A DNA stretch of 64,000 nucleotides, taken from assembly GCF_041381155.1 (NCBI RefSeq), contig NC_091135.1, positions 55,875,997 through 55,939,996 of the forward strand, written 5' to 3'. This stretch comes from Argopecten irradians. Its lineage: Eukaryota > Mollusca > Bivalvia > Pectinida > Pectinidae. Numbering within the stretch: position 1 is the first letter of the stretch; the number at the start of each line of letters is the position of its first letter. The notes below the pieces were generated by a model, which ran no database searches, was not told the origin of the DNA, and was given only the letters and a program-made list of their open reading frames with translations. The position numbers and the translations under genes are program-made. Below are positions 181 through 51,469 of this stretch, in pieces.

Positions 181-2300
181 ATTTTTTATTCCTGCAGTAC
201 TTTATACTTTCATTGGTGAAATGCCGACCGAAACTTTTAACACAATCCTCAATATTTGTAAAAAGCCATATCAAGTTCAGTTCCGTCGAAGTATACATAT
301 TTTTTGTTTTGATATTTAAAGTGAGATCATTGTGTGTTAATTGCATGATGAAAATGTTGCTTTAAATGATAGTAAGGTCATTACTTCTTACAGCAGAGTG
401 ATATTATATACAGAAACTAAAAACACCCGAAACATGGTATAGAGTCAAACCTTGTTGATAAAGACCATCCAATGGACAAAGGGAATATGGTCTTTAAAGG
501 CAGTTTGTCTTTATACACATGTTAAAATTGGTCCTTTTGAACTATAGGAAAGCGGTCGCATTAAGCAGATGGTCTTTATACAGAGTTGGCCGCTATGACA
601 GGTTTTCTGGTCCACTACGTTTACGAAAAGAAACAATAAAACAATTATAACGCAATAACACCATACAAATACAAAATTCCCGTTATAAACATTAGTTACA
701 ATGAAGGTGTCTTTTGTTGTTTTGCTGTGTGATGTAGTAATAGTCAAAACCCGTGTCGTAATTAAAATGACCCAAACAATAAAATAAATTACAGTTATCT
801 CTTTAAAAATGTTCGGAAAACTTAACCAAATTATCCAATTCGTCTTACAGTTTAAGAATTAAGAGTCGTTTTGCTTAAGTATGTACCTTTAAATGTTATT
901 TCTTACATATCTGATTTGATATTTCTTGGTAATTATAAATATACTTACTAAAATTGCAATATTATTAAAATAAGTTGACGTGTACTTTGTAATGATATTG
1001 ATTTACATGTCATGCAATTGAATTTCATTGGATGTGTATCAATATATTACATACATTCCAAAACAAATAAAATGTTAGAAAACAAACGTGTGTACCATTA
1101 ATACAACCTGAGTGTTACATACTAAGTGACTTCGGAACACCGGTATTTAGTAAGCCATTACATTAACTTCTTTGATGACAGAATGCGTTAACCAGCAACG
1201 ATTAATGAGCTGTCAGAGCTGAGGGGCTTAATATTGGGTATGAAAACTTATTTTGATACAATATTTGCAAAATGTGTGAGAGAAAAAAACGTTTAAGAAA
1301 AGTAATCGAAATATGTCCTTGGATAGAATTGAATGAGAAGTTGAATGAAAGCAATTTCTATAGAAGAAAAATGAAGAGCATCATTTATCAATATCATTTA
1401 TCAATTTCGTACAATTCATCTAGCTCTATACTAGTGTATAAGCAGTACTCTGTGACATCAAGAGCGATACAACGCCAAAACGTAAAGTTTTTCATCACAT
1501 AACGACCAAGGTTCACACTCACCTTGAATAAACAAAGATCAATACATGATAACGGACATTTATGCTTGCTTTTCTTTTACATTAAACGTAATATTCAAAC
1601 GTATACGAACTCCCTATATATTTATGTACATAGTCATTACTGTTTGTCATCAATTCGGTTATTTATTTCGTATTTGCTGTTTAGTTATCTTATTTTCGAA
1701 ATAAATTGTGAAAGGACATTTATTTAGAAAACAATTTTCACATAAAATCAATACACATATTCTAATTGATAATCTTTTTTATTATATTCACTATCATAAT
1801 TAAAGATTTCACTACGTGGCAAACAACAGATGGCTGTCCAATTTGTTCTGACAATTAAAAATTGACCGTAACTCATCAATGTATCTACGTAATATTGACA
1901 TACTTTTGTTTGTATGATTGTTAAGGTTTTACGGCCCATTGATAACTAATGTCATTTAGGGCCAAACTACAAGGCAGGCATTAGTATTAGAATATAGACA
2001 AGGACTGTATCTAAAAGATCAGGATAAGAAAAAGGCAAGTAAAAACTAAAACAAAATTATAAATATTGATTTAATAAAAAGAGTTGCACAGGATAAAATA
2101 GTTTTCACTAAAACACATGAGAAAACGCATGCACTATGTTGATGAAACGATGAGTGTTGCGTTGATATGAATATTAGATAAATCAAGATGAGAAAACGTT
2201 CAAATTTTGTTGAAAATGCCGAGATAGTTGAAAATACGATTATGTCTCACGGCATGGAACAAAGTGTACATGTCGGAAAACTTCATAATTCTTATCTTCG
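181..2300. other. No gene recognised; probable intron sequence
   Basis: AT-rich sequence after the splice donor at 175. Short ORFs here show no domain and no coding bias. The stretch about 430-600 repeats phrases such as 'tggtcttta' and 'tggtctttatacaga', which looks like a decayed interspersed or low-complexity repeat. Nothing else could be supported. Confidence 0.4.
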
Positions 2301-2817
2301 TTTGTTTGTTTGATTAAGTAACGTCATATAAATAGATATGGTCATGTAAGGACGGCCTCCCATGTGTGTGGTGTGCTGCGTGTATGTTGTGCGAGGTGTG
2401 TGTTTTGGGAGACGGCGGTATATTCATGTTGTGTTTTCTTGTATAGTGGAACTGTTGCCCTTTTTATAATGCTATATCACTGAAGGATGCCGCCGAAGAC
2501 ACCAAGCAACACACCGAACTCCACATTATACTGACAACGGGCGAACCAGTCATCCCACTCCCTGTATGCTGAGCGCTAAGCAGGAGCAGAAAACTACCAC
2601 TTTAATAGACTTTGGTGTGTGTCTCGGCCAGGGGACAGAACCCAGAGCCTTCCTCACAGGGGCGAACGCTCAACTCAAGGCCAAAAAATAGGCAGTGCCA
2701 AGGGAGGCATTAGGAAAGATAGAGTCAGTTAGGAAGAAGAGAAAAGACAAGATCCTAAATTTAGTCGCCTTTTACGATCATGCAATAAGGGCAGCAGGTG
2801 CAATTCTAACGCCCTAC
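2301..2817 (-). mobile_element. tRNA-derived SINE, copy 1
   Basis: About 517 bp, read on the minus strand. It is the same family as the copies at 3146, 3868, 54068 and 60737. In the sense direction it has a 5' block beginning GTAGGGCGTTAGAATTG, a tRNA-like region with a degraded box A (TTGAGTTGAGCG) and box B (GGGTTCTGTCCCC), a conserved central domain, and a 3' tail of CAAA repeats, here TTTG repeats from 2301. It abuts the RNase H part of the LINE fossil at 2818. No clear target duplication was found, so one edge may be lost. Confidence 0.75.
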
Positions 2818-3145
2818 GGTAGTTTCAAATCTGTTTGTGCTAGGCGAAGAGCTGTCTGAAGAGCTGTTTTAACGGCCTTTTCATTCCCCTTTATACCCAC
2901 ATGACTGGAAAACAAGAGGTATGTAATTTGAGTTTTAGAAGATAATCGAAATGTTCGGATTAATGTGTTTCTAGGGTTTCTTTATTTCAAAGCCTGCATG
3001 ACCGAAAGAGAGTGGGAACAAATGGTTGCCCTTTCAATGCGGTGTTATTCGATATGGTCAAGCGCCAGATCGATAGCACATGCTTCCGCAGAGAAAATGG
3101 AGGCAACATCCGGGAGTCGGATAGAGGAACAGTGATTAGATATAT

Positions 3146-7190: not shown

Positions 7191-10100
7191 GGTTTTTTTT
7201 TTTTGCCTAATTGATATAGTCTATATATTAGGCAAAAAAAAAATTTAAAAAAACCTAATAATATAGGCAGGTTTAGCGGACTAGAAAGACTGTTGATATT
7301 TTCTCTTGGTTTCACAACTCTCGTTTTACTTCGAGATTGTCGCGACGATGTTCGGAAGAGTTCGGAATGATTCGGCATCTTTAGAGCCTATTTTTCACGT
7401 GTACACGTTAAAAAGATGTTTTACTTTTATAATTAAAGATACTTCCAGTGCTGCAACTTTATAAAAAGTGGTAAAATTAGAAAGTTTAAACCTCAGACAG
7501 ACGGAGAAAAATATGTATAACACTTACACAGTTTTCACTATGACAAAAAGAGCGAAAGTTATAGACCATACAACTTAAAACACTCAGGATTACTGATGTG
7601 CTTGACTGTAACCAATAGTATGAATGAAGAACATTTTTATGTATCATTTGACAATCATAATTATGGTATTATATTGATAATAAATCTCATCTTATTCCCT
7701 TTCAACTTAAAATGAGAACTGCAGATGAAAATGTCGGGACATATTTATGATTAAGAAGACATCAATTTAAAGCAATAAATTGTTTTATATTTGTTTTTAC
7801 CCAAATCAACATGGTATATCCATTGAAACCAATGTAAACACTTCACCTCTTTCACACCTGACGAGTAGACCAGTCCATTATGAAATTTCAGGGGTGAATG
7901 AGTTGTTAACACATGATCACGCGAGCTTACCTTTGCAATCATATTCTCTAATACTAAATTTCGCGAGCGTCTATTTCACTGGTGATTCTCCTTTATTGTT
8001 GGTACTCTGGATTGTAAATATTGCATTAGATAATCTTATATTGCCCCAACACCATGCATTCTAAAAGAACTCGCCATTGATGCCAAGGGACAAACGTATT
8101 GGTCATTTTGGAAACAGACAATTATTATATTTGAAAAACGCTAAAACGAGGAAAGGCGATGTAAATGGCTAAAGTATTTGGTAATAACGGCGATAAAAAA
8201 AAATTGAATAATAATTTGGTTCTAAACTGAAAATAACAAATCTGACAATGGATGCATTTGAGATTAAAAAAAATAAAATGACATGTTTCAAAAATCGATT
8301 ATTTAAATTCTTTATTTTTTTTTAATCTCAGTTGAATGCTTTTTAACTTGCATTTCAGCTTGAAGAAATATTCTGGATCGTGTCACTTTTGATATGAGCG
8401 TTACGACCAGGTTATTGTATTCCTAGGGACCTCACAATGCGCAGCGGTATCGCCTACTGGTTATCACAAGAACAACATAAATCTTTGTGGGTAAGCTTAA
8501 ATATTTTATATGTTATAAAGTAAATTGTCTTGTTCGATGACTGGGGTTTCCAAATCATTTGACCAAATGGTACTTATCATTGGGTGCATTACGGTTTAAG
8601 AATGCAAGCGTCATAACTGTTACTGCACCATGCGCAAGTGTTGCCGCCCTCCCGAAATAGTCAGTAGATCAAACAAAATGTTAAAGATAAAAGGAATATT
8701 TCAACCGGAACAATATTTCTTGTTAATAGTGAGTCCCGTAAAAAACAAATGTGTCTCTAGAGTATAATGGATTTTTTCTTAATATTAGTTGTTTAAGCCT
8801 TCAACATGAGTATGTCTACCATTACTTCTAAATACATGTATCTCATATAATCTGTCTTAGTTGTTTTATGATCCAAGTTTAATAGTTACTCTTAATATTG
8901 CTGTCGAATCCTAGGGCGTAAAAGTCGCGCTGCTAATAAAGTAAAAACAATTATGAAGATGCTTAATGACTTTTGTATATTTCTTTGTCAGATTCAAAAT
9001 ATGTTTATCTTATATCATTGATACGACAATAAGGCAGAAAATTAGTATTGAAACGCACTTTTATTGATGGCATAGATGGCAAAGTGTTTGTGTGGTTCTG
9101 AACAAAAACCAAAAGGTCTAATGAAATACACACAATGAGAGGCGACATATACAAATATAAATGGTGGTATATGGATTCTGTGTTTGTTTCCTTACGCACT
9201 AACACCTTTCGGTTGCCAGGTATAAGTTCATGTTTTTTTAATTGATATCCGGGAGTTTGTTCTATTTATACAAACATATTTCCTTTATTAATCCACTGCT
9301 TAATTACTTGCTCAACGATCCGTGGTTTTTACTGTTTCACACTTGACCTGTCGACACGATAAAACTAATTGTCTTTGTATGGTCGCACAATTTTCGATCC
9401 AAATAAACCAGTATCTGGGAATTTTCCAAAACAATTTCTATTGAGTCGATTCCTAGTTTCTCATCTGCGTAAATTTAGCGTACAAAATGATAAATGTACT
9501 AAATGATATTTGTTTGATTTACTTTAGTGGATAGTTTGGACAGCACCCTAACCAAGTTATGTCCCTCTAGGAATCTTTATATCTTACTACAGGATGGTCA
9601 CAGGCAAGATGGACTGTCCATAGTAGTAATGTATACCTTATTTGAAACTAATAATGTCTTAGTTATGAGGAGTTATGTCCCTTGCAATAGTATATGACTT
9701 CGACGTAGACCTATTTCATATGTAATTAAACCAGCATCACTTTTTATTGATATATTTGTGGTTTACATTTGGTTGCCTCGTACGATGTATAATACATTAT
9801 TGTATATGTTTTATTGATAACTGTAGATGTTACTTACAAATATCTATAAATACCTGTAACATGAACTTGACTGCTGATAATTTTCATATGTATATAAATA
9901 GTTTATAGAATGATGTAGATGTTTTATATGTAATTTTAGATGTATTATAGATACACGGTTGCATATATATTTTTATATAGATACTTTTAAGCCTTGATGA
10001 CACTATATCTTTTTTTAACTTGAACAGACTATTGTTTTTGCAAACAAAATACATTTCATAACCCGATGAAGTTAAAAAATACTTACATCAATGCTTATAA

Positions 10101-20185: not shown

Positions 20186-23100
20186 TCAGTGAGGCAATGT
20201 TCTTAGACGGCTGAGTAATGATTCGAGCACTCCTATTGTCCGCGACACTGTCGATGTGGAAATGGTAGGCGTAAATGTGTGGAAAGCTTGCGAATTCATG
20301 ATCGGTGATCGCACTGATGATTGGCTCTGACCTGAAGTTGGCGACTGGAAAAGTTTGAAAACAAGACTTGACAATTCCGCTGGAGACTGTGAAGCCGGTG
20401 AGTGGAATGCTCTATTTTGGTGCCGTGTTGGGGCATGGAGAACAGTTTGTACAACCCGAGGCCTTTCTCCAAATGCCATTGTTTGTTCGGCAATCATCTG
20501 TCTATTTGGTCCGACATTATTTGATGGGTTAACGGTTGATTGTTTTGAAGTAGCGAACGGTGTTGCTACGATAGCGTTGACCCTTTTGATTTCATTCGTT
20601 TTAAGCCGATCCGAAAGTGCTTCAAGCACAGATGTAATCATTTTTGGTGCCTCTTTAATTTTTTTAACCGCCTTTCCAGCTCGATATATAGCTCGGATAT
20701 CCTTCAGTGGGGCTACGTACTTAATCCTTGGTTTTTTAGGCACGGGTGAATTCAACGGCGAGTGTAATGGGAAATTCATGGGTGAATTTAATACATCTGC
20801 GACAATTTTAGCACTGGTTTGATAGTCCGGGACGACAATGAAGTCCTTATCGGTGCCCTGTCCGGTAACACAGTATTCTCTATCCGCATCCCACATCAAG
20901 ACGCTTCTACGTTTCCATGCGGGATTGTTACATTCCCATGGCTGTGCGGCCTGAGCCGGCGAAGGACTATAATGGGCACGGACAGACACATGCTTGGTGT
21001 AGGCGTCACTGTTCATTAGAGGGTAACGGCTGTCGAACGGAAACTTGGCCAGGATCTTAGCTGGGTCCTGAAGAGGGTTGGTGATGGACGAATCGTATGG
21101 GTATTTCTCCGGGGACTGCATGTTTTGACGGATATCCTCCCACAACTTATCTATGTAACATTGGGCGAAAAAGTAGATAGGGTCGGAGGGAGCGGTAAGC
21201 AGTCCTGACATGGTGCCGCCGACCCAAGCCTGTACTCCATTGTGGTACTCCTCCAAGGCAATATTGGTCGTGTACACCAGTTCGTGGTTAGTCTTCCTGC
21301 TCATTAACGAATCCACGTTTTCTCGAGCTATTAAGGACCCGGCCTGTCCTATACTTCGAGATATAGGAGTACCGTCTGGTTCAGTGAAATTCATAAATTT
21401 TCCAATCTTGACAGTTCCATCGCCGTTCCCAAAATAATACTTCGTCCACAGAATCGACTTGGTTGGGTCTGTTATATGGAAGTCCAACGTGCAATCCCAG
21501 TAAGGAATGGGGACATGTAGATAAAACTCCAACCTGGAAGGAAACATTGACAACAACTAAGTTAATAATATTAAATGTGGGGACATGGCGATCACAGGTA
21601 AATACTTAACTAAACCAGGAAAGCCTGTCAGGACATTTCGTCAATAGTGAATCTAATAATAATAATAACATCCAATCGTGCTTGCTGATGACGATTTCGA
21701 TTTTGAAATACCGGATACTTGTTTGTTTTTATTCATTCTTGTTCTTAAGTTATTTATTTTGAGTGAGGGAGGGTATTAGTAGTCTGTGATGGCAGTAGTC
21801 TGTTAATTTCAAGGTGTTAAGGAAGACAAAAGAATTATCAAAAACATTGAAATCATTGGAAGACGATGGATATTTACCATAACAAAACTACTTTGTGCCA
21901 GCCAAGGAAAGCAGGTCCGCCATTAGTTCCAGCAATACTCTCGTCCGAAAAGAAATCCACGATAGTCTTATAGAACTGTTGAATAAAATGGACAATTATT
22001 ACTTTAAAGAATAGCAGAGTAGTGCAAAGCGCACTCACAATATAAAGTGACTATTTAGTTTAATTCGTGTATCAAATATATATCAATTATGGACCTTTGT
22101 TGAGGTCAATATTGTGTTATATTGCCCGAGTAGAATAAATAATGACCGAGGGCGTAGCTCGATGTCATTTTTTGAAATTTTACAAGGGCAATATAACACC
22201 ATATGGACCGAAACAAAGGTCCTTAATTCTTATATTAGATATGAGAATTATTTTAAATGTTTGCTTCGTCCTAAGTAATATAGAAATGAATGGAGAATGT
22301 CTCGACTACATCTTTCCGAAGAACTCGACGTCGGGGTATTGTGACATCATAATCGCAATATCGACCTGAGTGACAATAGTAATATTGACTCGGTGTTTCT
22401 AAAAATTAAAACTAAAAATATCGCCCTCGCCTGACAGTGTATTAGCCAATGAGAGTGGCGGAAAATCGGAGCATATCTAATACATTTAAATATATGTACA
22501 TCTACATGTATATAGCTGTTTGGAAATAGCTATTAATTATATAAAACATTTCACGCTGTTTTTATTCAAAATTTGAACTATCCGTACTCTTCTTTCCTAA
22601 AACAATTAAAGATAAATATCTTGAACGGCCATCCTTAAATACATACGTGTTTGATAATGAAACTGATTTAACTGCTTACAACCTGAAGATTTCGATAAAC
22701 TCGTATTACAAGCGGGAGGTGGGTAATCAAATGGTTGTGATAACCTTTGCTCATTACTCATTAGAAATTATACATAGTTAGAGATACGGACATTCACAGG
22801 CTCAAAGCATGCATAACTGACGGGTTCAAGAGAAATGTTGCTTATTTCTTTTGTATACTTGTTTAATTCTTAGGAAAATAGCATATTTAGTAAAAGTATA
22901 ATGCCAAAAAACAAAGCAAAACAAGCTTACTCACCCCATTTTCCCGCAGTGAATTAAAGCGGTCTCTAAGAAGATTCCATTCCGGAGGTGAAAGCATTCT
23001 GATTTCCCTACGGGGCTGGGCCTCGTTAGAAACTTGCCTCTTCAACCTCCAGTGTCCAGTTTTCATCTGCCGTAAAACAGCGTTAAACTGATTCACCTTC

Positions 23101-23339
23101 TCCTGCTTCATTTTCGGTGCCATCTTTTTGATACCGCCATTCCCTAAACAGTCGATGAGCGAGATGATATTCTGTTGCTCCTGTTCTTTGCTCACCTTTC
23201 CCAGAGACAGGCCCTTGTCTCCACATGTAAACTGGTACTTTTCATGGGTGGCCACCTGGAGGTCGGACAGCCGGTCAAAGGTCACGACAGACCAAATATG
23301 GGCAATGCATAGCATGGCACAGAATACCACGGACCTCAT
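20186..23339 (-). CDS. Secreted tyrosinase-like protein with lost copper ligands (three coding exons)
   Basis: Coding exons are 23339-22935 (135 codons), 21975-21878 (98 nt) and 21533-20186; together 616 residues. Splice sites are TTTTAG/G before the start exon, GGG/GTGAGT, CAACAG/TTC, ATG/GTAAAT and TTCCAG/G. Residues 1-20 form a signal peptide (MRSVVFCAMLCIAHIWSVV). RREIRMLSPPEWNLLRDRF near residue 110 is the conserved entry to the di-copper domain. The CuA signature is GGPAFLGWHK: the ligand at residue 162 (WH) remains, the preceding one is Asn153, and no His occurs in DFFSDES where the first ligand would lie. PYWDC is at 178-182. In CuB, YHNGVQAWVGG keeps His265 but has Gln at 269, and DPIYFFAQCYID has Gln292 in place of the third His. 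So two of six ligands remain. The core ends near residue 405; a tail of about 200 residues is rich in Ser, Pro and Lys. Mollusc tyrosinase families of this kind act in shell, periostracum or byssus. Oxidase activity is unlikely; a matrix or scaffold role is inferred. Confidence 0.9.
22091..22222. mobile_element. 132-bp foldback MITE in an intron of the tyrosinase-like gene
   Basis: GGACCTTTGTT at the left is mirrored by AACAAAGGTCC at the right, and GTTATATTGCCC pairs with GGGCAATATAAC further in. With the flanking AATTA/TTAATT the inverted repeat may reach 22085-22228. It lies in the intron between the first and second coding exons. The target duplication is not clear. Confidence 0.7.
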
Positions 23340-29715: not shown

Positions 29716-32700
29716 TGTCAAGAATAAGCCAACTGTTATGTATTAAGTTTGCTATGATCCGGATTTATATAGTTTTGTTCCAGTCATTAGTTACGCTCTG
29801 CGTAAGAATACAACCTGTCTGTCTGTTAGTCAATAAAAAGTAGTTCTATAATGGCGAACAGGTGTTGTTGATGTTTGTCATCAGCCCCAAACACATTTCT
29901 GGCGACGAGGATTGTGGTACAACCTACGACAATGGGTGAAAACGCACCACAACGTCACAATCGATCTATTGGTAAGATCGGACAATTTGATGACTCAATC
30001 GAGTCATGGGAAACATATGTTGAACGGACAGAACTCTATTTCACCACAAACAACATTGACGGTGATGTTAAGGTGGCTTCGTTTCTCACAGTAATTGGTG
30101 CAAAAACTTACGGGTTATTGAAAAACCTATGTGCTCCAGACAAGCCTGCTGATAAAACTTTTGATGATATCATTGTTATATTGAAGAACCACCTATGCCC
30201 CAAGCCGTCAGAGATCGCCGAGCGTTTTCGTTTTCATAAACGGGATCAGCGTTCGGACGAGAGCGCCATGTCATATATCGCAGAGTTACGGAAACTTTCG
30301 ATACACTGTAATTTTGGAGACCACTTGAAGACCACATTACGCGATCGTTTTGTATGTGGTCTCCATAAAGACAACATACAACGGCGGCTACTTGCTGAGA
30401 CAGAGCTTAATTTAGAAACGGCTGTTAAAACTGCTGTCGCTATGGAAACAGCCAGTCGTGATGCACTCGAGCTACAACACAAACGTTCAGAACCTGTAAA
30501 TAAAATAAATTCCAATACACAACGTCGGGGGAAGGGAGGTAACTCCAATCACAACAATCAGACTAGTGGAGCAACAGGGGGCCATATGAATAAATCTACT
30601 CGTACTTTCAAACCCTGTTGGCGATAAGGAGCAACCACACACAAATTCGACAAATGTAAACATGTGAACTCTACGTGCCATTTCTGTAGCAAAAAGGGAC
30701 ATATTGTTGCTGTATGTATGTCTAAGAAGAAATCTGGACATGGAAAAACAGTGAGGTATATAGATGATGGTCCTGGGGAGGAGGGATATGATACATTTGA
30801 GCCCATGTTCCAAATGGACACTATTAACAATGTAAACACTGTCAACCCTATCATAGTGAAACCTAACATAGGTGGCAGCACTATTCCTATGGAATTAGAT
30901 ACAGGATCCTCAGTATCCATCTTACCCGAGGTGACCTATAAACAACATTTCAGCAACAGGCCTCTCCAGCGTAGTACAATTAAACTACGGACATACTCCG
31001 GGGAACAAATAATACCTGTGGGAGCTTTGAGGATACCAGTCAGTATCAATGACCAAACTGCTGAATTAGACGTACTAGTAGCACGACAGAAGGGACCAGC
31101 ACTTTTCGGAAGGGACTGGTTACAACATTTCAAGCTTAATTGGAAAGAAATCAAGAATTTGAAGGCTTCAAAACAACAGGATAAAAACACTTCACATACA
31201 GAGAAGGAACTACAGGCAATACTTGATAAACACAAGACTGTGTTTACTGGAATGGGAAAGCTTAAGGGTATTAAGGCTCAGCTGTTCTTGGAGGAGAACG
31301 CACAACCTAAATTTCACAAAGCTCGTACCGTACCATATTCATTAAAACACAAGGTAGCAGCTGAACTACAAAGACTACAGGATAGTGGCATCATTAGTCC
31401 TGTACAGCACAGTGACTGGGCGTCTCCTATTGTTCCTGCCTTAAAGAAGTCTGGACAAGTGCGCGTGTGCGGTGACTATAAGGTCACAATCAATCCAGTG
31501 ATGAAGGTAGAGCATTATCCTCTACCGAAGATAGAGGATATCTTTTCATCTCTGGCTGGAGGCAAGAAATTTACAAAGATTGACTTAACAAATGCATACA
31601 ACCAGATGGAAATGGAGGATAGCTCGAAGGAAATGCTCACCATAAACACTCACAAGGGTCTGTTTAGGTATAACAGATTACCATTTGGAGTTTCATCTGC
31701 TCCAGCTATATGGCAAAAGGCTATGGACCAAGTCCTACAGAACATTCCATTTACTTCATACATATTGGATGACATGATCATTAGTGGTAAAACTGATGAA
31801 GAGCACTTACAGAACATTAACACTGTACTCGATCGGCTGGAGAGCTACAACCTTACAGCAAACTTGACAAAATGTCATTTCTTTAAAGAGAAGATCACCT
31901 ATTGTGGCCATATCATTGAGGGCGAAGGACTCCACAAATCTCCAGATAAAGTCGAGGCAGTCGTGAAAGCCCCTAAACCAGAGAATATGACACAGCTGCG
32001 TTCATTTTTGGGATTGGTAAACTATTACCGCCGATTCCTTCCTAACCTAGCAACTGTGGAGGCACCACTGAATCAACTACTACAGCATGACAACAAATGG
32101 TGCTGGACAGACGAGTGTGATCAATCTTTTCAGAAGGTAAAAGAACTGATCACGTCGGAACAAGTTCTCTGTCATTATGAACCTAAGCTTCCAGTAAAGC
32201 TAGCATGCGACGCTTCACCTCATGGATTAGGGTGTGTACTTTCCCATATCACAGAGGACGGAACAGAGCGACCTGTGGCATTCGCTTCACGATCACTGAC
32301 AAAGGCTGAGACAGGATATTCACAGATCGACAAGGAGGCCTTGGGTCTCTATTGGGGTGTACAAAAGTTCAACACCTATCTCTACGGTCGTCATTTTACC
32401 TTAGTGACAGATCACAAGCCACTGGTCAGCATCTTACATCCAAACAAGTCGATACCTACCATGACCGCAGCAAGATTACAAAGGTATGCCATGTTTCTTT
32501 CTGGACACACCTACAGCATTGAGTATAGGAACACTCATAACCACGCAAATGCTGATGCACTCAGCAGACTTCCTTTAAAGACTCAGGGTGACTATACAGA
32601 CACCTCATCTTTGTTCTATACCTCACAGATAGAACAATTACCTGTGTCGGACACACAAGTACGCAAGGAAACAATGCGAGATCCAGTACTGTCGAAAGTA

Positions 32701-33960
32701 TTGGAGGCTGTTCTACAAGGAAGTACAGAATTTCCATGTAACGATGTGTACAAACCTTTTCGTAACCGTGCTACATAACTGAACGTACATCAAAATGTAT
32801 TGTTATGGGGCAACCGAGTTATCGTCCCTAACACGCTACAAACAAGAGTACTACAGGAAATTCATGATGTGCATGTGGGCGTAGTCAGGATGAAATCCAT
32901 TGCTCAAAGTTATGTGTGGTGGCCAAACATTGATTCGGACATAGAGAACATGTGTAAGTCCTGCTCTGGATGTCAATCTACGAGTAATACGACGCGAGCC
33001 GCACCAGTTCATCCCTGGGAGTGGCCAACCACCCCTTGGGATAGGCTCCATATTGACTTTGCCGGGCCGTTTCTCAACAGTATGTTTCTCATCATTGTTG
33101 ATGCTCACAGCAAATGGCCTGAGGTCTACCCAATGAATTCTACAACAGCCACACACACCATTGAGAAATTACGAATCTTATTCTCTCAACAAGGTATGCC
33201 ACGACAGATTGTCTCGGACAACGGGTCACAATTTGTAAGTGAGGAATTCAAACAATTCCTGAAACAGAACGGCATTCAACACACTACTTCAGCACCGTAC
33301 CATCCACGGACAAACGGACTTGCCGAACGTTTCGTACAGTCCTTTAAACAGGCTATGAAACAAGCCAAGGGAGACAACCGATCTCTCCAACATAAACTTA
33401 GTAACTTCTTACTCAAGTACAGAACCACACCACACGCTTCAACAGGCGAAACCCCAGCAAAATTACTGTAAGGTAGAAGTCTGAGGACTCGATTAGACTG
33501 TCTCAAACCAAATGTATTCGCGAGAGTTCAGAAGGGACAGGAACGAATGAAGATATCTTCTCACTGTGGGTCTAAAGTACGCCAGTTTAAGACCGGCCAG
33601 CAAGTTTTGGTTCGCGACTATCGCGGAGGGGGAAAGTGGATTGCAGGTCAGATTATACAACAAACTGGTCCGATTTCATACAAAGTTGGTACTGGCAATG
33701 GTAGTATTTGGAGACGTCACACAGACCAAGTTCGTGCAACACAGATCGCTACGGAACCGGAACCAGAAGTAATGGTGACATCATCTGCACCGACACCACC
33801 AGTCAGCTTAGCACCATCGACTATCCCGGTACCAACAACTATCACGGCTCCCCCAGCCACACTGGAGGTAGTGACACCGCCTGCCAACTCAGTTCCAACA
33901 GAGACACGACGCTATCCAAAAAGTGAGAACATTCGTGCCTCTGTGAAATTAGATTTGTGA
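29716..33960 (+). mobile_element. Ty3/Gypsy LTR retrotransposon fossil
   Basis: A Ty3/Gypsy element of the type often annotated as K02A2.6-like. In order: a probable left LTR (about 29716-29895, ending shortly before a primer-binding-site-like TGGCGACGAGG at 29900), a Gag-like region (about 29.9-30.6 kb), a CCHC zinc knuckle (about 30.68 kb), an aspartic protease (LDTGSS, about 30.9 kb), reverse transcriptase and RNase H (about 31.2-32.6 kb), and an integrase with zinc-binding, catalytic and C-terminal regions (about 32.8-33.8 kb). The order protease, RT, RNase H, integrase defines Ty3/Gypsy. Long stretches remain readable, so it looks fairly young, but it is broken in a few places and no right LTR was recognised. 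It should be treated as inactive. Confidence 0.9.
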
Positions 33961-37498: not shown

Positions 37499-39283
37499 TC
37501 AAGAATTTTTTTGCCTTTTGTCACTGACATAGTAGGATTTATATATTGTGTATCCTGCAAGTGCAAGCAAAAAATTAAATTGTTTACACATCTTATTTTC
37601 TGGATAATAACCCAAAACTATATATTTCAGAGATCGTACATTTATAAATATTCCTATTTTATGAAGATTCATTGTCAGTTTATTCCAAAACATTTCCACA
37701 TGTGTGCATTCTATGAAAAAATGTGTGTTGTCGTCAACCTTATTACAATATGGACACAATTCCGAATTTTTCTAGTTGGAATTATATTATGAATCAATTT
37801 CCATTTGAAATTTTTTAATGAATTGTCATGTAAATTTTTTAAATTGAATTTCAAAATTTCACAGAACTCATTGATATCACACCGAAAATGATATCTCCAT
37901 TTTTCTAATAGGTTTGGTTTTTCTATTTTATGATTAAGTAAGGTTTTATATAAGAATTTGTTTGTATGTCCATTCAATACTTGAATTTCATCTTTATTTT
38001 TACTTGGCTCTGTTCTTACTTGTGTTTTCATTTTTTCTATCCATGTTTTCGGTATTGATTTTTTTATTTTGATGAGTTCTGCAATCCAGTTTGCTTTGCA
38101 AACTAGTTTTTCATAAATGCTAGCATCATTTATATTTCCAGTTTCATCAAATAAATCTTTTATTTGTATTATATTACTGTCGATCCAATTTTTAAAAATA
38201 ATAGATTTACCCTCGTAAGTAATGCTGGAGTTACCCCATATTATCTCATTATGCACGTATGTTGGTAAAGCATTTCGCTCTTGTGATCTAAATCTAATCC
38301 AAGACTGTAGTATTTTTATATAAAAAGCTGGGATCTCTTCAATATTATGTATCTTTTTAAGTGATTTGATATTCATTCTGAATATTAGCGAAGTGTTAAC
38401 AAATTTATCATAATAGAGTTTAGGTATTATTGTCCAGTTCGAAAAAGTATTTTTTGGGTCAAATAGTCTTTTCACCCATGTAATCCTAAGCATTTCTATA
38501 TGCGTTTCAATATCTCTTATGTTCACACCCCCATTATCTATTTCATTTATCAGTACATTTCGCTTAATTTTGTCTGGTTTATCATCCCATAAATATCCAA
38601 ATATTATTTTTTCCAGTGTCTTTATTTGATCACTATTTATATGTTGAACTGTTGCCAGGAAAGTTATTTTAGGTATGATTAATGCATTTATTATAGTAGC
38701 TTTTCCAATTAGTGTCAGTTTTCTTTTTTTCCAGTTTTTTATGAGATAATTGATAGCATTTATATTTTTTTCCCAGTTCATTTGCTCTACTTCTTTATTT
38801 TTAACACCAAAAATCACACCTAGAGACTTGATGTTTTCTCTTGTCATCTTTATACCATAAACCTCTTTTTTGTTCTTGTTTTTACCTAGCCAAAGACCTT
38901 GTGATTTTTCTTTATTAAGCTCAAGCCCAGAATGTATACCAAAGTTCTCAATTTCTTTTATTGCTTCTTTTATATCACTTGATTTTACAAATAATGTTGT
39001 ATCATCTGCTAATTGGGAAATTTTTATTATTTTTCTTTTAATTTTAACCCCTTTGATGTTTTGGTTTTCTCTTATATTTATTGCCATAATTTCAACTGCA
39101 ATCACAAAGATCAAACAGCTCAATGGACAACCTTGTCTTATTCCGCGTGAGATTTTATATGAAATATATCCGTATATATCATAGTACAGTGTCTGTACCC
39201 AAGAGATAAAAGATTTTCCAAAACCAAATTTGTCTAAAGCTTCTAGCATGAATACCCATTCAATAGTATCAAAGGCCTTTTTT
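37499..39283 (-). mobile_element. Tx1/L1-like LINE, 3' part: reverse transcriptase from motif A onward
   Basis: A long minus-strand frame starts at KKAFDTIEW (39283) and includes RGIRQGCPLSCLIFVIAVEI and the catalytic LADDTTLF, then the thumb and C-terminal regions (KRKLTLIGKATIINALIIPK). A frameshift near 37750 leads to a C-terminal zinc motif, CPYCNKVDDNTHFFIEC, ending at 37499. The LADD box and zinc-rich end fit the L1/Tx1 group. The 5' part is not next to it but appears at 47573-48854, exactly complementary at motif A (FLDF, then KKAFD). Confidence 0.85.
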
Positions 39284-39829
39284 ACACAGCGCTATAGCAT
39301 AGCGCTTGGGTTTATGCCGTCTGGTTTGACCCGATTTGTAAGACATAGTAGGACTTGCCCCACAACGACATCTAGCGGTGATTTTGCGAACCATTTCATT
39401 CATAAACTTCCATTCATAAATTTCCGTTCATTCCTTTCAACCAATCAAAATGCTGTCTTCCAATTACTGCTTTACTAATCATTTAATTGATTGCGTTAAA
39501 TAAGTAAATAAAATCAATAAAACAACAATAAGTGTTTGCTGTATTTTATTGAATGCAGATTAGCATCGTAATGTGAAAAATGCGTATTTAATATATTTCA
39601 ACGGAAACCTTACACTAGCTAGACCGTATTACAGTCATATCGTTACCTGAAATATAGTTCAGTGTTCTGCACATGCAACATTATTATTGTGCACGGAGAT
39701 GAATTACGGAGAAATCAAATTACATAATAAATTAAATGGTAAAATTGTTAATCGGGTAGCCTAATGTGTATAATAATTATTCGTACATGTTAATAACTAA
39801 TTTGCCATCGCGTATTAATTTTAATCAGT

Positions 39830-46279: not shown

Positions 46280-47572
46280 TTACACTCACACGACTTTTTA
46301 TTTATATTTTATGCAATAAAATCGTCATTTGAAAGTGACGTAATTATTCAATAAAAGTCGGTCAAAAGTGGGAGGAGCTTACTCAATTGAACAGCGAATG
46401 ATGACGCTTCACGTAAGGTAGAATTATTCATCCGCGACGACAAAAAAGTTCAATATTTTAGTGTAAAATAAACATGACAAACAAAGTAAATTTCAGAGAT
46501 AATTTTATTTAATCAGATCAGAACTTTAAATATATATTCAATTTTGCTAAAAGTTAATATATAGCGTAATAACATAAAGAATTTGTACACGGCCACATGT
46601 GTGAACTCGGTGACCGTTAGATTCTATTGTGCAGCGAGGCGAAGCTGACGCACGCTTACACACTTTACGTTGCCGAAGTTGTGAAAACACCGATTTTCAA
46701 GTAGCTCAATGTGTTTGAGATGTCGTCTGACTTGACGATATTACATCCTTGGGAGCCATGTGATTATATAATCTACGCTTAGATCCATATCGCCATCGAT
46801 AGATGAAACAAATTCACTTGTGTTCGATGGATACAATGTATTTGTGGTGACGCGGAACTGTCAACACGTGGATTATTAGCGGTGCATGTTTTATAATACA
46901 CATGATTAAATACTCAAAGAACAAAGACAAGAGGATATGTTTATAACTGACCTCTATCAGAGGGTCTCACACCCGTCCACCCCAAAGGCTCGATCGTAGG
47001 ACGAACATAGGCACAGAGGTAATGTTTACATTCGACACCCATCATTTTTAACAAAAATGAAAGCACGTCGCCCCGGTCGGGATATTTTTCCGTTTCTTTA
47101 TACAGTTGTTAATTTAAAAATTGTTTGAATCATATTTAAATATAAAACATGTATATATTGTTTACATTTTTCCAAAATTCTATGAAAAACAACAATATAC
47201 ACGTAATGTTTCGTCAAAATGTAAACAAAGCCATGTGTTTCTTTAAAAAAAAGTAGTCCTTTTACGTTGCACAGAACATTTCCTTACGCAAGTTCAAAGT
47301 TCAATGTTACCATGCAGTTATGGTAAACAAAATCGGCTAGTATTAGCGTATAGTGACCAAGCCTAGCAAGTGTAAATATATAGATATGGTTATACAAGTG
47401 TATGCATATATGAATGTATAAATACAGAACATGTAATCAAACAATTGCAATATATATGGGCAAAATTGTTAAAAAATAATGGCTCATGTATTCTAATTAT
47501 GAAAAGACATTTTATTTCATTTAATTTTTTCTCTTTGTGTAGCGCTGTGTTTTCAGTACTTTCAGTACTTTG

Positions 47573-48854
47573 ATTAAAATCTAAAAATAAAATTGCGCTA
47601 TCTGTTCCAAATTTTTCAGCATAGTCTATCACATCTTGTATTTGTCGTATATTAAACCCAATAAACCTATTTTTGATGTATCCATTTTGATCTGTATGTA
47701 AAAATTTAGGCATTATTTTTTTCAATCTTTGAGCTAATACAAATGCTGCAATTTTATAGTCTATATTTAGTAAGGTGATCGGTCTCCAATTTTGTAACGA
47801 AGTTTCATCACCCTTTTTGTATATTAAAGAAAGTAAACCTATTTTTTGTGACTCTGACATTTCTCCTGCATAATACCCTTCATTTAAGGCGTTGATTACA
47901 TCATCTCCAATAATACTCCAGAAATGCTCGTAGAATTCTACTGTTAGACCGTCTAAACCGGGGCTTTTATTTTTTTCATATTTTTGATAGCATGTGTACA
48001 TTCAGATTTTGTTAGGGGTCCATCACAAATAGCTTTTTCCGATTCATTTAGGGTGTCTTGACAATTTGTATTTCTGAGATATTGCTTTATAGATTCTTCA
48101 TTAGGATTTTTACTTTTGTATAGGTCTTCGTAAAACAGACGAATAACATCCAGAATTTTACTCTTTTTCGTTACTAATTTATTATTCTTGTCTTTAACCT
48201 TATGTATAACTTTTTTAGCTTGTCTTTGTTTTTCTAAGCCCAAAAAGTATTTATTTGGTTTCTCTCCCTTTTTTATGTATTGACATCTTGACCTAATTTG
48301 TTCACCCTGTGCTTTGTGTTCATAATATTCTTCTATTTCTTTTTCCAATATAAGGATTTGCTCTTCATTTTCTTTTTCTGATTTACTTTCATTTCTTTCA
48401 TGAACCATTTTAAGTTTTTCTTCAAGGTATATAACTTTATCCTTCCTCTGTTTACTTTTTACAGTAACCAATTGTTGCTTCTTTAATTAGAATTTTTATA
48501 TAATCCCATGTTTGCCTTTTATTTAGATTACTCCTTCGACATTCTTTTTTCGCATTTACAATTACATTTTTAATTTTTTTCAGTATAGTTTATGTCTTTT
48601 AGCACACTGTTGTTCATTTTCCAAATTACCTTTCCGCGTGTTTCGCCTACATTTATCAGTTTTAGTGATATAGCCATATGATCAGTTGAGCGTATCTGAG
48701 CTGGTCTTATATCACAGGAGTTAATTCTATTTAAGAAATCTTTTGCTATAAGCCAGTAATCTATCCTGCTTGCTTCTTTTCCAGTTTTTCTTCTCCAACA
48801 CTTTTTTTTTGAGTTGTATGTTCCATTGATTTTCATTATTGCTACCATTGTCAT
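47573..48854 (-). mobile_element. Tx1/L1-like LINE, 5' part: endonuclease end to reverse-transcriptase motif A
   Basis: On the minus strand the 48854-48570 region has WRRKTGKEASRIDYWLIAKD and IRSTDHMAISL, the end of an apurinic-type endonuclease with its SDH-like motif. Then comes a charged linker (48471-47953) with CQYIKKGEKPNKYFLGLEKQ, and next the reverse-transcriptase start: KSPGLDGLTVEFYEHFW, QNWRPITLLNIDYKIAAFVL and AILFLDF at motif A, ending at 47573. There are a few frame breaks. The remaining reverse transcriptase lies at 37499-39283. On the other side a CR1-like LINE begins at 48855 on the opposite strand and the endonuclease N-terminus is absent. Confidence 0.85.
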
Positions 48855-51469
48855 ATTTTTATGAATGATATTTTTACTTTTGTTGACAAATGTGTTTTAT
48901 ATAATTATGCAGATGATAATACTCTCTCTAAGATAGGTGATAGTTTTTCACATATGAAAGGTTGCTTAGAAAAAGAGAGTAAAGTTCGAATAGACTGGTT
49001 TAATTTTAATGGTATGAAGGCCAACCCAGAGAAGTTCCAGGCTATATGTTTTGGAAAGAAGACAACAAATTCTATTAAATCTTTTAACATCGATGGCCTT
49101 GAGATTATGTGTGAAGATACTGTAAAACTTTTAGGTGTAGATATTGACTTTGTTCTTAAATTTGATGCACACATATCTCGACTCTGTAGAAATGCTGCCA
49201 AACAACTTGCTGTTTTAAAAAGACTGGGAAATAATCTTACAAAGAAGGGGAAAATTACCATTTTTAAGTCTTTTATACTTTCAAATTTTAACTATTGTCC
49301 ACTTGCCTGGCACTTTTGTACATTGACTAATACTAGGAAAATGGAAAAAGTCCAGGAGAGAGCACTTCGTTTTATTGACAATGACTATGTTTCCCCAGTC
49401 TTCGATATTTTAAGGAGGCACAAACTTGATTTTTTACATGTTAAGCGTATGAAAGATATGGCCTCTGAAGTTTTTAAAATTTTAAATGATATTTCTTCTC
49501 ATATTTTACAAAATCTTGTTGAGAAGAAAGAAGTTTTTTAGGTCACCTGAGACGAAGTCTCAAGTGACCTATTCTAATCGCCTTTTGTCCGTCGTCGTGC
49601 GTCGTGCGTCGTGCGTCGTGCGTCGTATGTCCGTAAACAATTTACATTTTCAACTTCTTCTCCAAAACTGCTGAAGCAATTTCAATGAAATTTTGCACAA
49701 ACCTTCTTAGGCATAAGGCCAATCAAAATTGTGAATTATATGGTCCCCACCCCCCAGGGGGCTGTGGGAGGGGCCAAAAGGGGTAAAATTGAGTAAAATT
49801 TCAAAAATCTTCTTCTCTACTCACAGATGTGGTAGAATCAAATACTCTTCATAGATAGAAAGGTCTTAAGGTCCTTTACAAAAATTGTGAATTATATGAC
49901 CCTGGGGTCTCTAGTTTCCCCCTGGGGAGGGGGTTAAGTTTACTATAGTTTATATTGGGAAAACACATTTTTGCGGATTATTTGGTCATTTGTAATAGGA
50001 AATGAGTCAAATGTTGTCAGAATTATCAGTATGAGATGGCCATTTAATCCTATTAACAAATTTTCTATGACTGACCCCCAGGGACTTTAGGGGCGGGGTC
50101 AAAAGGGGTCAAATAGGCTAAAACTTCAAAAATCTTCTTCTGAAATTCTGGAAATGGTAGAATCAAATACTTTTGAAAGGTCTTAAGGTCCTTTACAAAA
50201 ATTGTGAATTATATGACCCTGGGGTCTCGCGTTTCCCCCTGGGGAGGGGGTCAAGTTTACTATAGTTTATATAGGGAAAACACATTTATGAGCATGTTTT
50301 GCTCAATTTTCATTGGAAACGAGTCAAACTTGGTTAGAATTATTAGCCTGAGATAGCATTTTAATATCATATCCACATTGGTCCTGGCCGACCCCCTGGG
50401 GGCAGAGGGGCGGGGCTAAAAAAGGGTCAAATAGGCTAAAACTTCAAAATTCTTCTTCTGAAATTCTGGAAATGGTAGAATCAAATACTTTTCATAAATA
50501 GAAAGGTCTTAAGGTCCTTTACAAAATTTGTGAATGGGCAGGACCAAAAAGGGTCAAAATTATTAAAATTTCAAAAAATACCTCTAAGTTCACAGGTTTG
50601 ATGGAAGCAAATACTCTTCATAGTCTAAAAAGTGAAATTTATAAATCACTGACCAACTTCAAGGACCAGCATATAGTGTTTATATGTCTTTAATTTGTTT
50701 CATTATATATTCTAACTCAGGTGACCGTTAAGGCCCATGGGCCTCTTGTTTTATAATCTTAGACAGGACAACCTGGTAAAGATTCCAAGGGTAAACACCT
50801 CCACTTATGGTAAGAGATCTTTTCGTTTCGCTGCTTCTCAGGTGTGGAACAGTTTGCCAAATGAATGTCGGCAAGCTGAAAACTACAGTTCGTTTCGCAG
50901 ACTGCTTCACACCTGGGATACACAGATCTGCTCCTGTACCATCTGTACACACCATATAGGATGAGTTGTTCCCCTTTGGAATCTACCTACTTGTAATTAT
51001 ACCATATAACCTGTGATATTTCAAACCTTTTCAAAGATCATTACTTTTATAAATCTTTTTTTAGCTTTTGTTTTCTACCTATGACTTCAATATCTACTTT
51101 TAATTCACACTATGTTAGTGTATATCCTGTAAATTTTTACACTTTGCTATATTAGCATTTATGTACATTACACTTCAGTGTCTTAACCTTTTTTGTGTAA
51201 CATTTGTGTGATATACAAGTGTAATTATTAAGTTATTACCTTTAAATTAAATTTTTTTATTTCTGCTAAACTGTGATAGCTGTTTCCATATCATGTATCT
51301 ATTGCATGCTTGCTATAGTTAAATTGTTGTCTGTCTATATATATTTTACCTGTTTGTACTGTGATATTTTACATATGTTTGTCGCAAGAATAGCACTACA
51401 GTGCTAATGTTATTATGTTCCCCATGTATGCGACTCTAAATAAAACTTCTTGACTCTTGACTCTTGACA
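48855..51469 (+). mobile_element. CR1-like LINE, 5' truncated, with nested insertion
   Basis: The frame from 48861 shows the reverse-transcriptase box LYNYADDNTLS, then DWFNFNGMKANPEKFQAICF, KLLGVDIDF and FILSNFNYCPLAWHF, a typical CR1-group ending. It is interrupted after KKEVF at 49540 by a 1.2-kb element and resumes at 50749 with YNLRQDNLVKIPRVNTSTYG and SFRFAASQVWNSLPNE. The 3' UTR ends near 51469 with AATAAAACTTC and three TTGACTC-like repeats, the short tandem tail typical of CR1/L2 elements. The endonuclease is missing at the 5' end. It abuts the Tx1-like LINE, into which it probably inserted. Confidence 0.85.
49541..50748. mobile_element. 1.2-kb non-coding element nested in the CR1-like LINE
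   Basis: The element starts GGTCACCTGAGAC, which folds with GTCTCAAGTGACC just after it, and ends with the exact palindrome AGGCCCATGGGCCT followed by CTTG. TTTTA flanks both sides (49536-49540 and 50749-50753) and the LINE frame joins cleanly across it. A GTCGTGC microsatellite lies near 49593-49625. Inside, a unit of about 320 bp repeats, with AGGTCTTAAGGTCC at 49861, 50178 and 50504. A 5' hairpin, a 3' hairpin with a short tail, microsatellites and no coding capacity resemble Helentron-related elements (DINE/pearl type), but the 5-bp duplication would argue for a cut-and-paste mechanism. Confidence 0.75.

Follow-up and report, generated by a model that had tools for sequence, protein, structure and literature searches.

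An intact tyrosinase-like gene of Argopecten irradians with four of six copper-binding histidines replaced

The window, which is the whole stretch of 64,000 nucleotides that was analysed (C2:55875997-55939996 in the 846-Mb assembly), contains a tyrosinase-type gene with three minus-strand exons, GT-AG borders, and 616 open codons. A myosin heavy chain gene on C5 also points to Argopecten: its first 65 residues agree with PDB 1b7t/1kk7, striated muscle myosin of the bay scallop Argopecten irradians, at 65 of 65 positions (131.2 bits), whereas 2ec6 and 2os8, from another scallop, score 119.5 and 118.8 bits. Exon 1 (22935..23339, 405 nt) encodes residues 1-135, exon 2 (21878..21975, 98 nt) the CuA half, and exon 3 (20186..21533, 1348 nt including the stop) the PYWD motif, the CuB half, the C-terminal part of the core, and the tail. 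The gene model reproduces all the coordinates, the codon number, the splice borders, and the motifs of the original prediction. The broken frame, splice site, or start that would mark a pseudogene is absent. The Pfam tyrosinase domain PF00264 is recognised at residues 154-300 (55.1 bits; cut-off 22.6). Among solved structures, the sequence matches hemocyanin chains best and tyrosinases next (28 distinct sequences, E ≤ 0.01). Elsewhere in the window, we named by eye a retroelement-like coding stretch (29872-33960, plus strand), gag-like at first and then reverse transcriptase and integrase-like, which consists of four end-to-end open stretches in one frame separated by stop codons. LINE-like reverse transcriptase frames, also named by eye, lie at 37711-39291 (minus), 47390-48486 (minus), and 48813-49541 (plus).

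The nearest other gene by protein search is S39, which lies outside the window on the same strand (matched exons C2:55963340 to 55966483), with the end of its last exon about 63 kb from the window gene. The two genes are grouped in the tree with support 100/100 and their cores are 52% identical. The S39 motifs SFH, AHDGP, WHR, YH, PHVW, and FHH contain all six copper ligands. We aligned the ligand columns of the window gene to S39 and 21 intact paralogs, and additionally set the HA2, HB2, and HB3 columns against hemocyanin chains of known structure. In exon 2, histidine is replaced at HA1 (Phe144, TTT) and HA2 (Asn153, AAT) and kept at HA3 (His162, CAC). In exon 3, it is kept at HB1 (His265, CAC) and replaced at HB2 (Gln269, CAG) and HB3 (Gln292, CAA). 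Columns and codons thus confirm the loss of four of six ligands claimed at the outset, with the same replacements at residues 153, 269, and 292 and the same two surviving histidines; the proposed marking of the six columns was carried out against paralogs of the same genome. Counted from the codons, the four replacements took at least five base changes in total. Without HA1, HA2, HB2, and HB3, the protein would not be expected to form a type-3 dicopper site, as is established for the family.

Exon 1 begins with a hydrophobic N-terminus, judged by eye in the translation, and contains Cys39, Cys64, and a proprotein-convertase-like site, RLKR, at residues 98-101. Sites of the R-x-K/R-R type were found in exon 1 of paralogs at 4 of 13 loci by pattern search and, by eye, in three further paralogs (L039, L045, and L046). 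The tail (residues 411-616) has 27 Lys and Arg versus 10 Asp and Glu, together with 25 Ser and 19 Pro, in line with the basic Ser/Pro-rich tail described earlier. Its pI is 11.2, versus 6.0 in S39, and the two tails are barely alignable (24% identity). The structure prediction of residues 169-420, made from exon 3 alone and with no alignment, had a mean pLDDT of 35.5 and is of no use.

A search of the window for an alternative exon supplying the missing ligands, which the original prediction named as evidence against itself, turned up none. The queries were 50 core segments, taken from the CuA and CuB regions of 25 genes with the window gene among them, searched at E ≤ 5 with the best match per 300-base bin reported. 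E values below 0.01 occurred at exons 2 and 3 of the gene itself and nowhere else. The whole-genome PF00264 search likewise gave one place in the window and no second.

Genome-wide, 42 PF00264 places are listed, some of which are pieces of one gene. The six columns are readable in 26 genes, which are fewer than the whole tyrosinase family, and all six histidines are present in 22 of them, namely S39, 20 others in the alignment, and L052, whose copper-site stretches are identical to those of L051. CuB alone was read at L025, L037, L038, L060, L062, and L064, with three of three histidines each, and at L048, also with three of three but with a stop (TAA) in the exon. The CuB of L063 and the places C9:15053558 and C4:26332561 were left out of the counts. 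The tyrosinase genes L051 and L052 (C2:44753001-44765000) lie in tandem, separated by about 5 kb; the identity of their matched stretches suggests that one copy arose by recent duplication or that the assembly repeats the region. L048, L061, and L065 are probable pseudogenes, being tyrosinase copies that carry stops or lack parts.

The four genes short of six histidines are the window gene, the L023 gene on C9, and two neighboring L057 genes on C1. The L023 gene (C9:12227750-12231196; CuA near 755, CuB near 1863) has H,Y,N,Q,H,R in the six columns, and its core exon is open over 276 codons. Like the window gene it has lost four of six ligands, but the ligands are partly different and it belongs to another clade (with g15, support 59/86). 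On its branch, the codon model gave an omega of 0.34, not distinguishable from 1 (2ΔlnL 1.21 versus omega = 1 and 6.86 versus the one-ratio model), with silent sites likewise saturated. The L057 pair (C1:44486500-44496000; 1079-3031 and 7839-8813, minus strand) consists of divergent tyrosinase-like genes, one of which has lost five ligands and the other two. By our reading their columns are H,V,L,S,Q,L (one kept) and H,N,H,L,H,H (four kept), the first column being less certain owing to a short loop to the second. The pair falls outside all others in the tree, for which one member is the chosen outgroup. The L057 gene with five ligands replaced ends in many GYDRxGY-type repeats. The window gene, the L023 gene, and the L057 pair stand apart in the tree, so the ligand losses would amount to at least three separate events, provided that the L057 genes descend from an ancestor with a complete site.

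The core around the lost site is well kept. The window gene retains 16 of 17 invariant non-ligand columns versus two of six ligands (Fisher p=0.008), and the sole changed column is Phe to Tyr. At 95% conservation, 24 of 26 columns are kept (p=0.006), and at 90% and 85% the counts are 30/39 (p=0.049) and 36/48 (p=0.056). The contrast between ligands and other columns weakens at these looser thresholds, so constraint is somewhat looser outside the copper site too. Column conservation was set from 21 paralogs chosen for intact sites, a selection that by itself guarantees invariant ligand columns. The contrast of the window gene with S39, which kept 32 of 42 columns and all six ligands in the leave-one-out test, is independent of this choice.

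For the pair of the window gene and S39, omega = 1 is rejected (2ΔlnL 155.7, 407 codons), a result that speaks for the pair and not for the window-gene branch. The pairwise omega values of 0.044 and 0.039 were obtained with the fitted divergence at its upper limit and should not be taken as numbers. The protein branch of the window gene is about 1.35 times as long as that of S39 (0.45 versus 0.33). Tajima relative rate tests with six single outgroups gave ratios from 21:21 to 30:15, one of the six with p < 0.05. Where three outgroups agree, the window gene has 18 unique changes versus 4 in S39 (p=0.004). In the branch codon model (187 codons, seven genes), a free omega for the window gene did not differ from 1 (2ΔlnL 1.10), the estimate lying at its upper bound with silent sites saturated. 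A raised omega on this branch fits better than the common value of 0.028 (2ΔlnL 11.68), a weak result at the same saturation, and the test leans to relaxed constraint on the window gene. So the gene appears to have been constrained for most of its history, more loosely than its sister S39. The description of the protein as conserved but copper-free accordingly stands in part: the gene is intact and has lost the site while retaining most of the conserved core residues, whereas a dN/dS below 1 on its own branch was not obtained.

We simulated neutral evolution from the window gene with histidines restored in the ligand columns, at seven divergences with 3000 runs each. No run combined the loss of at least four ligands with the absence of a stop, and at the highest divergence zero runs kept an open frame. 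The analytic maximum for neutral loss with an open frame is about 4.4e-5, at 0.044 substitutions per base, an approximate value that ignores indels. It is improbable that neutral decay would have left the frame open, and a protein rate only modestly above that of S39 likewise speaks against neutral evolution of the gene. A young pseudogene, the other finding that the original prediction had named against itself, is judged unlikely given this maximum, the conservation of the invariant columns, and the rejection of omega = 1 for the pair.

Relaxed constraint on a gene that is en route to a pseudogene and has no present function is the explanation to which the excess of unique changes at conserved sites and the branch omega not distinguishable from 1 (silent sites saturated) would fit. 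The same genome also holds decayed relatives, namely L048 with its TAA and the pieces L061 and L065 with stops. However, the 616 codons have neither stop nor frameshift, though about 4.5% of random substitutions create a stop. The frame is still open after the base changes in the four ligand codons, and all but one of the invariant columns are kept, and we consider the explanation unlikely. An assembly or gene-model artefact could be suspected in a single assembly, but it would have to produce four separate codon changes, spread over two exons and involving five bases or more. The gene is clean in all other respects, with consistent splice borders and no alternative exon found in the window, and we regard an artefact as scarcely credible.

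The function of the product may also be read differently. The protein may still bind metal through His162 and His265, one histidine being left on each side of the site, assisted by Gln, Asn, or other side chains; in principle, both Gln and Asn are capable of ligating metal. Phe144 is unable to do so, however, and 22 of the 26 genes read retain all six histidines, and we regard metal binding as very improbable. The protein might instead regulate active tyrosinases or assist their assembly as a non-catalytic partner, and not serve as matrix; this would be a sub-case of the pseudoenzyme interpretation that we prefer, and its odds overlap with it. Such a role agrees with the retention of most core residues and of the cleavage-like site in exon 1 and with the many paralogs that have a full copper site, although a core just 52% identical to the nearest paralog speaks against it; we take it for a minor possibility.

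We think it reasonably probable that the window gene is a duplicated alpha-type (secreted) scallop tyrosinase that lost its copper site and was retained as a pseudoenzyme, acting by binding or as matrix. The gene is intact, keeps nearly all strictly invariant core residues, and has diverged far from S39 without stops or frameshifts. In the pseudoenzyme interpretation, the protein would be secreted and cut at the RLKR site, and its tyrosinase core would fold without copper. No dicopper-oxygen species would form and the protein would act by binding; the basic Ser/Pro tail supplies charge that the S39 tail lacks. We infer a secreted non-catalytic protein because the reading frame, the cleavage-like site of exon 1, and the majority of core residues are kept. 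Its most likely use would be in a matrix or in adhesion, or else alongside catalytically active members of the tyrosinase family.

Bivalve tyrosinases are commonly treated as shell and byssus hardening enzymes. Chlamys farreri has an expanded set of tyrosinases with expression in the foot, and mass spectrometry of byssal plaques identified tyrosinase among their proteins (PMC5700196); tyrosinases are also listed among conserved bivalve shell matrix proteins (PMC5379566). Because of these parallels, a byssus or shell role of the window gene product is plausible by analogy. A bolder proposal, which we advance as speculation, is that scallops repeatedly made copper-free binding proteins from duplicated tyrosinases, at least three times in one genome (the C1 pair, the C9 gene, and the window gene). 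The resulting class of pseudo-tyrosinases in byssus or shell might bind phenolic side chains unoxidised or tune active enzymes. If expanded copies are indeed kept without a copper site, gene counts would exceed enzyme counts and the tyrosinase fold would have a second, non-catalytic use. The sister pair, one with a full site and one without, offers a direct test.

Compared with molluscan alpha-subclass tyrosinases, the window gene has the same central PF00264 domain and similar CuA and CuB surroundings, as do paralogs of the same genome, and it shares their descent, joining the intact S39. Its ligand-column spacing of X(8), X(8), X(3), and X(22) is close to the H-X(8)-H-X(8)-H and H-X(3)-H-X(21)-H given for HcTyr2 (PMC7045039). 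It differs from the subclass in the replacement of four of the six copper-binding histidines and in the basic tail.

Loss of copper ligands is also known from hexamerins and cryptocyanins, which belong to the arthropod hemocyanin lineage and are not PF00264 tyrosinases. Cryptocyanins are descendants of type-3 copper proteins that lack copper ligands and serve other roles such as storage. Both groups share the ligand loss with the window gene and differ from it by their lineage. Among matches listed, no copper-free bivalve tyrosinase was found in titles and abstract openings, a weak negative with most subscription journals outside the scope; nor did those matches show a tyrosinase-derived copper-free case recurring in one genome. 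PMC5201427 describes arthropod hexamerins as type-3 descendants without copper ligands and with other roles such as storage, and Biomphalaria Hcl-1 and Hcl-2 as hemocyanin-like proteins retained with canonical histidines replaced, so the principle of histidine loss in retained type-3 proteins is already known. Hcl-1 and Hcl-2 resemble the window gene as mollusc type-3 copper proteins with replaced histidines, but they are multi-domain and hemocyanin-derived, and in Hcl-1 a single canonical histidine is absent per unit, compared with four in the window gene (PMC5201427). As a type-3 family gene that is intact but has lost ligands, the window gene is a candidate member of the copper-free type-3 descendants.
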